Shown piece by piece: positions 28,940 to 31,762 of a stretch of 32,921 nucleotides of DNA. How positions within the stretch are numbered: the first letter of the stretch is position 1; each line of letters starts with the position of its first letter. The DNA is taken from the NCBI GenBank assembly GCA_902629585.1, contig CACORI010000010.1, positions 1-32,921 of the forward strand. Reading direction: 5' to 3'. Position numbers and translations under genes: made by a program. Source of the DNA: an uncultured Pelagibacteraceae bacterium. GTDB lineage: Bacteria > Pseudomonadota > Alphaproteobacteria > Pelagibacterales > Pelagibacteraceae. A model generated the notes under the pieces. It ran no database searches. It saw only the letters and a program-made list of their open reading frames with translations, and was not told where the DNA came from.

Positions 28940-30493
28940 TCAATCTTTATAAACAATTTCTCTAGCTGACATAATTAATCCATCAGCTTCTTCTTTTGAT
29001 AAGGCAAAATCCTCTAAGTATCCTTGAATTTTTACTCTTTCGCCCTTCACTATGTCAAACCCACCGGTTAATTCATCAGATGCAAGGTCTGCAAAATCTT
29101 CTAGAGTTAAAATTTTTTGCTCACCTAGAGTCACTAACATACCGGGAGTAAGGCCTTTTAAGTTTATTAATGAATCTTCAAGACCAAGATCTTTAATTCT
29201 TTGTGAAATATCCTCTTTATCTTTTTCATAAAATTCTTTAGCTCTCTCGATTAATGCTTTAGCTGTATCTTCCTCTATACCCTCAATTTTTGATAGGTTT
29301 TCAACAGAAGTATCTTTTATATCATCGATTGTGGAGAAACCTTCAGCAACAAGTAGTTGACCAAGTGTTTCATCTAGTTCTAAATTTTTAACAAAGTATT
29401 CTGTTTTTTCCTTAAACTCTTGCTGCCTTCTTTCAGAATCTTCCTGATCTGTCATTATATTAATTTCAAAATTAAGTAATTTTGTTGCTAAACGAACATT
29501 TTGACCTCTTCTACCTATCGCTTTACTTAAATTTTCTTCAGTCAAAATTACATCAAGTTTTTTTCTTTCAATGTCAACATTAACTCTTTGGACTTCAGCT
29601 GGTGATAATGCATTTGATACTAAAATAGCTGGATCTTCTGACCAATTAACAATATCTATTTTTTCTCCTTGAAGTTCGTTAACAACAGCTTGAACTCTAG
29701 AGCCTCTCATTCCTACACAAGCTCCAACTGGATCTAAAGAGGTATCAACTGCTTTAACACATATTTTTGCTCTACTTCCAGGGTCTCTGGATGATGACTT
29801 TATCTCTATCAACCCATCATAAATTTCTGGCACTTCTTGTACAAATAACTTTTCCATAAATTTTGGATGTGCTCTGGATAAGAAAATTTGTTGACCTCTT
29901 GGTTCTCTTCTTACATCATAACAATAGGCTTTTACTCTATCTCCAGCTTTAATATTTTCTCTTGGGATAATTTCATTTTTTTGTATAATTGCTTCTGTTC
30001 TTCCTAAATCAACGATAATATTTCCAAACTCTAATCTTTTAACAATGCCGCTTAAGATTGTATCTTTTTTATCAATAAAATCGTTGAATTGTCTTTCTCT
30101 TTCTGCCTCTCTAACGTTTGAACTAATTACTTGTTTGGCTGTTTGAGCAGCTATCCTACCAAAATCAAATGATGGTAGGGGTTGAAGAACTTCATCCCCA
30201 ATTTTTTTATCCCTATTTATTTCATTAAGATTTATTGCATCTTCAAGGTTTATTTCTGTGTTATTATTCTCAGGATTTTCCGAGATTATTAACTTTCTAA
30301 ATAGTTCAATATCTCCATTTTCTCTATTAATCAAAACTTTAATTTCATTATCATGTCCAAACTTAGATTTTGCAGCTTTTGCAATACCAGTCTCCATGGA
30401 ACTAATAATTAATTCCTTATCAATAGACTTCTCTAAGGCGACTGCCTCAGCTATTCTTAATAATTCTAATTTATCTGCTCTTTTATTTAACAT
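28940..30493 (-). CDS. nusA: Transcription termination/antitermination factor NusA
   Basis: NusA binds RNA polymerase and modulates pausing, hairpin-dependent termination and antitermination. The 517-residue protein begins MLNKRADKLELLRIAEAVA, the standard N-terminus, and continues with an RNAP-binding domain, an S1 domain (ILSGIVKRLEFGNIIVDLG), two KH domains (GACVGMRGSRVQAVVNEL and KAIGRRGQNVRLA) and two C-terminal helix-hairpin repeats (LGQLLVAEGFSTIDDI; LINLKGLTPGMLVTLG). A longer frame from 30532 is rejected because its extra 13 residues are encoded by the terminator hairpin. GGAG (30505-30508) precedes the chosen ATG. It heads nusA-infB-rbfA-rpsO-pnp. Confidence 0.96.
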   Translation of the reverse strand: MLNKRADKLELLRIAEAVALEKSIDKELIISSMETGIAKAAKSKFGHDNEIKVLINRENGDIELFRKLIISENPENNNTEINLEDAINLNEINRDKKIGDEVLQPLPSFDFGRIAAQTAKQVISSNVREAERERQFNDFIDKKDTILSGIVKRLEFGNIIVDLGRTEAIIQKNEIIPRENIKAGDRVKAYCYDVRREPRGQQIFLSRAHPKFMEKLFVQEVPEIYDGLIEIKSSSRDPGSRAKICVKAVDTSLDPVGACVGMRGSRVQAVVNELQGEKIDIVNWSEDPAILVSNALSPAEVQRVNVDIERKKLDVILTEENLSKAIGRRGQNVRLATKLLNFEINIMTDQEDSERRQQEFKEKTEYFVKNLELDETLGQLLVAEGFSTIDDIKDTSVENLSKIEGIEEDTAKALIERAKEFYEKDKEDISQRIKDLGLEDSLINLKGLTPGMLVTLGEQKILTLEDFADLASDELTGGFDIVKGERVKIQGYLEDFALSKEEADGLIMSAREIVYKD

Positions 30494-30508
30494 TTTTTTG
30501 TTTGCTCC

Positions 30509-30536
30509 AAAAAAAAATGGGCTTAAGCCCATTTTT
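30509..30536 (-). terminator. Intrinsic terminator/attenuator in nusA leader
   Basis: TGGGCTTAAGCCCA (30518-30531) is a perfect palindrome that extends with five A-U pairs on each side. On the minus strand it is followed by nine Ts (30509-30517). This is a textbook Rho-independent terminator. The Shine-Dalgarno GGAG of nusA begins at the next base and the start codon is 15 nt after the T-run. It may also end metK transcripts. Confidence 0.9.
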
Positions 30537-30558
30537 GTGAGGTCAATAATTTAAGTGG

Positions 30559-30586
30559 AATATAATAAAGTTTTTTTTTAATTCAA
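30559..30586 (-). promoter_or_regulatory. Candidate nusA operon promoter
   Basis: The minus strand has TTGAAT (30581-30586), a 16-bp spacer containing an A-tract, and TATATT (30559-30564), starting 6 nt beyond the metK stop. Transcription would start near 30552, giving a leader of about 59 nt that contains the terminator hairpin before nusA. Confidence 0.55.
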
Positions 30587-30592
30587 CAGAAA

Positions 30593-31762
30593 CTATTTAG
30601 AAAAAACACTTGCTTTATCAGTCTTTTCCCAAGAAAATGTCCCATCAGACTCTGGGGACCTCCCAAAATGACCATATGCAGCTGTTTTCTCATAAATTGG
30701 TTTGTTCAAACTTAACATTTCTCTAATTCCTCTTGGACTTAAGTCAAAATTTTCTCTAATTTTCTCCTCAACAAATTTATTTTTCTCTAAATCATTATCA
30801 AATAAATCTACATAAACTGATAAAGGTTTTGAAACACCAATAGCATAAGCCAATTGAATTAAGCATTTATCTGTAATATTTGAGGCTACTATATTTTTAG
30901 CAATATATCTTGCTGCATAAGCCGCAGATCTATCTACTTTTGTTGGGTCTTTACCTGAAAAAGCACCTCCTCCATGCGGAGCTGCACCACCATAAGTGTC
31001 TACAATAATTTTTCTACCTGTAAGACCACAATCACCATCAGGTCCGCCAATTACAAATTTTCCAGTTGGATTTACATAAAACTCTTTCTCATTAAAATCT
31101 TCTAAAAAATTTTTAGGTATAGCATTTAACATATAAGGTCTCAAAAGATCTCTAACTTGGGACTGATTTATATCAGCAGAATGCTGTGAAGATATTACTA
31201 CTGATTTTACTTTTTTTGGTTTGTTATTCTCATATTCAAAAGTTACTTGGCTTTTAGAGTCTGGTTCTATATTCTTTAATTTTCCTGATTTACGATCTTC
31301 AGCCATTAATCTTAATATTTTATGAGAATAAAGAATAGGCGCAGGCATTAATTCATCCGTTTCTCTACAAGCATACCCAAACATTATACCTTGGTCACCA
31401 GCGCCTTCATCTTTATTTCCAGATGAATCAACACCCATTGCAATATCTTTAGATTGAGAATGTAAATGACTTTCAATTTTAGTTGCATCCTTCCAAGTAA
31501 ATCCTTTTTGATCGTAACCAATATCTTTAATACAATCTCTTACTTTTTGGATTAGATCTTCTTTTTTAATTTCTGGACCTCTAACTTCACCAGCTAAAAC
31601 TACTTTATTAGTTGTAGTAAGTGTTTCACATGCCACTCGAGAATATGGATCATTAGCAAGATAACTATCAACAACCATATCTGAAATTCTGTCTGAAACT
31701 TTATCTGGGTGTCCTTCAGAAACAGATTCACTGGTAAAAAGATAGTTTTTTATTTTACTCAT
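30593..31762 (-). CDS. metK: S-adenosylmethionine synthetase
   Basis: This makes SAM from methionine and ATP. The 389 residues fit the family. Signatures are the N-terminal [16 protein letters not shown] with catalytic-region H18, [12 protein letters not shown], the [18 protein letters not shown] stretch and the glycine-rich [22 protein letters not shown] loop. Its ATG overlaps the lnt stop by 4 nt (ATGA), so it is translationally coupled to lnt and there is no space for a 5' SAM riboswitch directly in front of it. trmB and rimP, which often follow metK in Alphaproteobacteria, are absent here. Confidence 0.98.

Follow-up and report, generated by a model that had tools for sequence, protein, structure and literature searches.

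What is a terminator doing at the very start of an operon? In the window, by which we mean the whole 32,921-nt stretch of DNA analysed here, a hairpin followed by nine T residues stands directly before nusA. Domain matches, to nusA itself and to the genes that follow, identify this as the first gene of the operon nusA-infB-rbfA-rpsO-pnp. The window comes from the SAR11 bacteria, which are streamlined and are the most abundant bacteria of the ocean, and an invariant attenuator over the core transcription–translation operon of such organisms would make a clear target for study.

The nusA leader

The features concerned all lie on the minus strand:

30593-31762, minus strand: metK, the upstream neighbour, outside the element
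30559-30586, minus strand: putative sigma70-type promoter, TTGAAT-16-TATATT, 9 of 12 consensus matches, directly after metK
30537-30552, minus strand: putative initially transcribed stretch with +1 near 30552; it resembles the genus consensus acaTt.TtgAAtTt
30513-30536, minus strand: terminator hairpin of 10 pairs, loop UUAA, core GGGC/GCCC, identified by sequence, script search and fold
30509-30517, minus strand: T9 tract, overlapping the hairpin by its first five T, which are paired at the stem base
30505-30508, minus strand: GGAG, a possible Shine-Dalgarno of nusA, from the sequence
28940-30493, minus strand: nusA, 517 aa (TIGR01953, 386.6 bits; NusA_N, S1, KH_5 and HHH_5)

Between metK and nusA, on the minus strand, there are 99 nt (30592-30494). 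The hairpin begins 57 nt past the end of metK; its arms, AAAAATGGGC and GCCCATTTTT, form 10 perfect pairs around a TTAA loop. An earlier sequence-only reading described a perfect hairpin and T9 ending at GGAG, 15 nt ahead of the nusA ATG (30493-30491), and by coordinates that description is exact. When both strands of the 32.9-kb window were searched by script for perfect stems of at least 7 pairs, at least 4 of them G-C, with loops of 3–8 and T runs of at least 6, the nusA leader was the sole site returned, and a terminator of the same description arose in 2 of 5000 dinucleotide shuffles of the gap. The same search placed none of this quality at the ends of other genes or operons, and since the window holds no second terminator, none could serve as a local control for stem drift. 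A consensus terminator scan of the window did not list the nusA-leader hairpin; it found 1 other, against 2.0 expected.

At gathering score, Rfam found no riboswitch, T-box or other leader anywhere in the window, just a tRNA at 1495-1576. A permissive scan, with the limit at E = 10, gave 38 matches, every one of them well short of its gathering score; the best, Bp1_162, reached 25.5 of 50 bits, on the opposite strand. An open reading frame of 530 aa would start nusA at an ATG inside the hairpin, but that ATG is in frame in 32 and out of frame in 20 of 52 loci from the window's genus, and because its frame varies we reject it as an alternative start.

The promoter boxes, TTGAAT at 30586-30581 and TATATT at 30564-30559, are separated by 16 nt. 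The sequence-only reading called this promoter 'good'. It is present, with its 9 of 12 matches, but chance alone yields many such pairs in DNA this rich in AT (34 found against 21.5 expected), and the putative promoter is a weak consensus match. Among the same-genus loci, the best promoter-like pair ends 25–27 nt ahead of TGGG in 44 of 52. For the second SAR11 family a strict promoter scan gave no consistent placement; a probable promoter, TTGATT..GTGTATAGA, is visible in the consensus of that family.

Transcription would start at 30552, 7 nt past the -10 box, and if it does, the leader of about 59 nt proposed in the sequence-only reading holds, along with some 16 nt of RNA ahead of the stem. 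The terminated RNA would then be 44 nt (30552-30509), with a folding energy of -12.3 kcal/mol (z = -3.35) that was matched by 1 of 200 shuffles; the full 99-nt gap folds less strikingly (z = -1.38; 16 of 200). A conserved acaTt.TtgAA stretch, window positions 30552-30537, begins near the expected transcript start in the same-genus loci; it could be an initial-transcription or a protein-binding signal.

Conservation within SAR11

NusA was matched in 86 of 101 near-relative genomes. The start of nusA is present in 85 of the loci, and every one of these was used, 52 from the window's genus and 33 from a second SAR11 family. To these were added 16 loci from four further genera of the order, and then 13 from four genera, the window's own among them, for a total of 114 loci in 11 of the 12 genera (g5 was left out); no locus was dropped from the counts. 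Across the order, 271 of 297 genomes give NusA_N, and most of these 271 lie outside the loci compared.

All 114 loci have GGG..CCC and T9 or T10 directly before nusA. The T run is exactly nine in 113 of them and ten in one (L040). The strict hairpin is present in 100 of the 101 loci of the first two sets, the exception being L110 (genus g7), which has GGGC-TTAG-GCCC and T9 with the outer pairs missing. All 13 later loci have GGGC..GCCC and T9; five of these, from genus g11, also do without outer pairs. In L281-L285 (g11) and L110 (g7), the terminator is thus reduced to four pairs, GGGC-TTAG-GCCC, with T9 directly after. The hairpin of the SAR11 nusA leader is not a product of chance.

The sequence-only reading expected the hairpin to persist in close relatives despite drift, and named its loss there as evidence against an attenuator. 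It is kept in all 52 same-genus loci. Identity was compared in 43 of these 52 genomes, the other nine being left out because their nusA is not 517 stop-free codons from the mapped start. The 10 stem columns TGGGC/GCCCA and the nine T columns are 100% identical across all pairs of genomes, against 42% for fourfold-degenerate nusA sites and 49% for the loop; identity is 53% in the leader, 59% in the promoter stretch and 57% in the 8 nt past T9. Ribosome-binding features follow a different course. The distance from T tract to ATG ranges from 8 to 28 nt in 100 SAR11 loci, and since an SD-like word follows the T tract in 70 of these 100, the Shine-Dalgarno is less conserved than the T tract. The drifting loop reads C-TTCG-G, a stable tetraloop, in 15 of 52 same-genus loci (L027 and L029, for example).

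Pairing is kept where sequence changes. Two positions out from GGG/CCC, 50 of the 52 same-genus loci have A-T and the other 2 have G-T; all 33 second-family loci have G-C there, as do all 21 alphaproteobacterial rimP leaders that bear the motif (see below). The adjacent pairs comprise T-A, T-G and C-G, and A-T, G-T and G-C, with unpaired combinations in a few loci. Thus the outer pairs differ between groups yet stay matched. Pairs were counted by script from the GGG/CCC anchor, because a MAFFT alignment of 66 of 68 non-redundant SAR11 sequences (L040, with its T10, and L110 left out) shifted one family against the other by one base in the 5' arm. The search expression had GGG, CCC and a T run built into it, together with [AG][TC] and [AG][CT] in the case of the alphaproteobacterial rimP leaders, so these letters were partly chosen; the invariance of GGG/CCC is best judged from the identity comparison and from the absence of any lost locus. 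Conservation of the stem in sequence, beyond what pairing needs, suggests that something reads it.

A rimP-leader variant whose rimP is missing

Elements of this kind are known. Naville and Gautheret (PMC2965389) describe the rimP-leader as a short terminator situated ahead of rimP-nusA-infB, 4–130 nt from the gene start. Its stem, GGGc..gCCC, is conserved to an unusual degree and is followed by a U-stretch, and its general form has no visible antiterminator; the taxa they name for it are Firmicutes and Gammaproteobacteria. The SAR11 element has the same conserved stem, a U-stretch directly after it (T9 in 113 of 114 loci, T10 in one), and neither a larger element nor an antiterminator; it lies 8–28 nt before nusA in 100 loci, with infB downstream in the window. 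It differs in standing directly before nusA, in the uniformity of its T9, and in belonging to an operon whose first gene is not rimP. The sequence-only reading missed that the element is known from rimP-nusA-infB operons and that its main interest is the missing rimP. What is already known is the rimP-leader element itself; what is added here is the apparent natural loss of rimP. Among the papers listed by searches, judged by title and start of abstract, none treats the SAR11 nusA leader or rimP loss in SAR11, although the supplementary list of PMC2965389 may include SAR11; the main text of a Pelagibacter RNA survey (PMC2704228) has no occurrence of nusA, rimP or metK.

The RimP_N profile matched none of the 101 near relatives and, over cut-off, none of the 297 genomes of the order; a sub-cut-off match in one of these (G204: 20.1 bits at E 8e-4, within a frame of 458 aa) was taken as chance. 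The same profile is found in 170 of 192 genomes of a sample of the class, and in 10 of 14 control genomes in each search. The second RimP domain was found in none of 23 genomes, 6 of them SAR11 (control: 10 of 14, 8 over cut-off). With no rimP over cut-off in 297 genomes, the SAR11 element is a variant of the rimP-leader rather than a plain member. And since SAR11 has the order trmB or metK, hairpin, nusA, where other alphaproteobacteria have the hairpin followed by rimP, rimP seems to have dropped out between the hairpin and nusA.

In those other alphaproteobacteria the comparison covers the best 30 of 170 rimP loci by score, not a random sample. The motif [AG][TC]GGG..CCC[AG][CT] with T run precedes rimP in 21 of these best 30. 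Among the nine that fail the strict motif, six have variants of it by eye (L119, L132, L137, L140, L141 and L147), one has a different hairpin further up (L121), and two have none (L130 and L146).

The hairpin is not always retained where rimP is missing, and this counts against the feedback model set out below. The 22 genomes of the class sample that lack RimP_N include 3 from SAR11 and 2 that were not listed; a search of the remaining 17 found NusA_N in 13. Four of these 13 non-SAR11 nusA loci (L153, L154, L155 and L156) have a hairpin and T-rich tail before nusA, of the GTGGGTTATCCC type in two; the L155 hairpin was recognised by eye, the script having missed it. One locus is ambiguous (L161, with GGGGCC/GGCCCC and T6, further up). 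The remaining eight lack a hairpin of this type: L149 has a weak, unlike one, and in the other seven none was seen.

Proposed feedback by NusA, and its rivals

We think it probable that the hairpin and T9 form a promoter-proximal attenuator of nusA-infB-rbfA-rpsO-pnp, operated by NusA feedback, and that they are the SAR11 form of the rimP-leader. The attenuator reading by itself is well supported by the sequences; feedback by NusA is likely. The proposed course of events is simple. Polymerase would start just after metK, make about 44 nt, and then meet an intrinsic terminator; nusA would be reached by read-through transcripts only. Polymerase-bound NusA would most likely raise termination at the hairpin, and with sufficient NusA the operon would shut itself down. 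The sequence-only reading had likewise proposed a nusA-operon attenuator, and the comparisons sustain it: the element goes with nusA and not with whichever gene lies upstream, has no antiterminator, and matches the rimP-leader motif.

The leader has no antiterminator, and the RNA ahead of the stem would measure about 16 nt, so the efficiency of read-through is most likely set in trans. A competing GGG segment occurs in 1 of 101 leaders, where it falls inside the putative promoter of that leader, and 16 nt would be too short for a leader peptide or for Rho loading. Control by Rho, leader peptide or riboswitch is unlikely.

Which factor is sensed? PMC2965389 weighed RimP and NusA for the rimP-leader, and favoured NusA. 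In SAR11 the hairpin is kept and rimP is not detected, which argues against RimP and for NusA; once RimP is gone, the sequences suggest NusA as the remaining candidate reader of the stem. That an entire order should lack detectable rimP and yet leave the element unchanged is an evolutionary argument, sufficient by itself to favour NusA. We infer the transcription start, termination in SAR11 cells, NusA as the effector, and a stem whose sequence is read.

There are precedents. In Bacillus subtilis, NusA is reported to be autoregulated by NusA-stimulated termination in the leader (PMC12288461, citing Mondal et al. 2016), which resembles the SAR11 case in having a terminator in the 5' leader of the operon and feedback by NusA, established there by experiment and proposed here. 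The B. subtilis leader is 180 nt and precedes rimP/ylxS (PMC2965389), whereas the SAR11 leader RNA would be about 44 nt and stands directly before nusA. In Escherichia coli, NusA represses its own nusA-infB operon (Nakamura 1985 and Plumbridge 1985, cited in PMC2965389). The SAR11 proposal is alike in having NusA repress its own operon. The E. coli operon begins with rimP or with earlier genes, and its leader has more parts. The Rfam family of gammaproteobacterial rimP leaders, RF01770, likewise concerns a terminator leader in the same operon; it differs in that the SAR11 leader reaches 19.2 bits on the right strand and 19.6 on the wrong strand, far short of the gathering score, which is 47.

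Some observations tell against NusA as the effector. Roughly 75% of the intrinsic terminators of B. subtilis are helped by NusA (PMC12288461), so NusA dependence alone would need no conserved stem sequence. NusA-dependent terminators tend toward interrupted distal U tracts (PMC8060035), and by comparison the SAR11 element, with its uninterrupted T9 and fair stem, may terminate without help. We offer more tentatively, at somewhat less than even confidence, the narrower proposal that some 44 nt of leader suffice as a self-contained sensor of NusA, that GGGC/GCCC is read by the NusA–polymerase complex, and that RimP was never the regulator. If that were true, the loss of rimP in SAR11 would be a natural deletion experiment, with stem and T9 retained directly before nusA, and the same sequence-read terminator would control NusA in Alphaproteobacteria, Betaproteobacteria and beyond. 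The 44-nt form would be a minimal template for asking why the sequence of a terminator stem, and not its pairing alone, should be conserved, and whether NusA is what reads it.

An attenuator of the same construction might respond to something else: to NusG, to effects of NTPs or ppGpp on polymerase speed, or to another RNA-binding protein. A conserved GGGC/GCCC would suit any factor that reads sequence, and the A-U pairs at the stem base resemble those of NusG-helped terminators in B. subtilis (PMC8060035). Nevertheless, the element stays with nusA through changes of gene order and the loss of rimP, feedback by the product of the first gene is the simplest link, and for B. subtilis such self-regulation of NusA, through termination in the leader, has been reported (PMC12288461). 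We regard a different input as unlikely.

Less likely again, and quite improbable, is that the hairpin merely terminates the metK (or trmB) transcript and is leaky enough to let nusA be expressed. At 57 nt past metK, it would indeed stop read-through from that gene, but the upstream gene differs while the hairpin remains, and this ties the hairpin to nusA and not to metK. In the second SAR11 family and in genera g7, g8 and g10 (5 loci, by Pfam) that gene is trmB; in the genus of the window, and in g12 by ORF position only, it is metK; and in the non-SAR11 locus L155 it is a divergent gene of the LptF/LptG family. Moreover, the hairpin precedes rimP in other alphaproteobacteria and in betaproteobacteria, it lies downstream of the putative promoter, and an ordinary terminator would have no need of an invariant stem sequence. 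A post-transcriptional role, in which the hairpin shields the 5' end of nusA mRNA or tunes ribosome access and termination is incidental, seems the least probable of all: the hairpin does end at the Shine-Dalgarno, near the 5' end of the presumed mRNA, yet it is T9, unneeded by a stability hairpin, that is invariant, and not the SD-like word (70 of 100) or the distance from T to ATG (8 to 28 nt).

In 9 of 10 rimP-bearing alphaproteobacterial loci tested, trmB precedes the leader. In the window it is not between metK and the hairpin (30593-30494), and in this genus it appears to have been lost from that place.

Occurrence of the motif elsewhere

The motif is a close companion of nusA. Within the 101 near-relative genomes, TGGGNNNNNNCCCANTTTTTTT occurs at 54 places, 52 of them nusA leaders and 2 elsewhere in second-family genomes, and the same pattern reversed, as a control, has 1 match. 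A second pattern, GTGGGNNNNNCCCRCTTTTTTTT, occurs at 33 places, every one a nusA leader, so that 85 of the 87 places found by the two patterns together are nusA leaders. The 16 genomes that have no leader match comprise 15 without a nusA match and one (G084) whose nusA is cut off at the start.

A GTDB scan with the 20-base pattern ATGGGCNNNNGCCCATTTTTTTTT returned at least 118 loci, all of which were examined. Among the matches listed, 91 lie 8–24 nt before nusA; the titles of 89 of these name Pelagibacter or Pelagibacterales, and two say only Alpha proteobacterium SCGC. Another 20, with betaproteobacterial titles, lie 437–620 nt before nusA. The remaining 7 have no nusA match in the available stretch: in three (L187, L198 and L205) RimP is next, and in two (L179 and L223) the sequence ends 54 and 161 bases past the motif. 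The last two have ample downstream DNA without nusA, and are therefore real exceptions among the matches listed. One is from Rummeliibacillus (L189, motif at 1959-1982), with an ECF sigma factor ORF 321 nt on; the other is from an alphaproteobacterial MAG (L262, motif at 2177-2200), where the next 669 nt contain no ORF of 100 aa.

The ORF that follows the motif in betaproteobacteria is RimP in 7 of 7 tested. Oxalobacteraceae and relatives (L162-L270) have an identical ATGGGC..GCCCAT with T9 ahead of rimP. They share this form of the stem with the family of the window; other alphaproteobacteria read mostly GTGGGC..GCCCAC.
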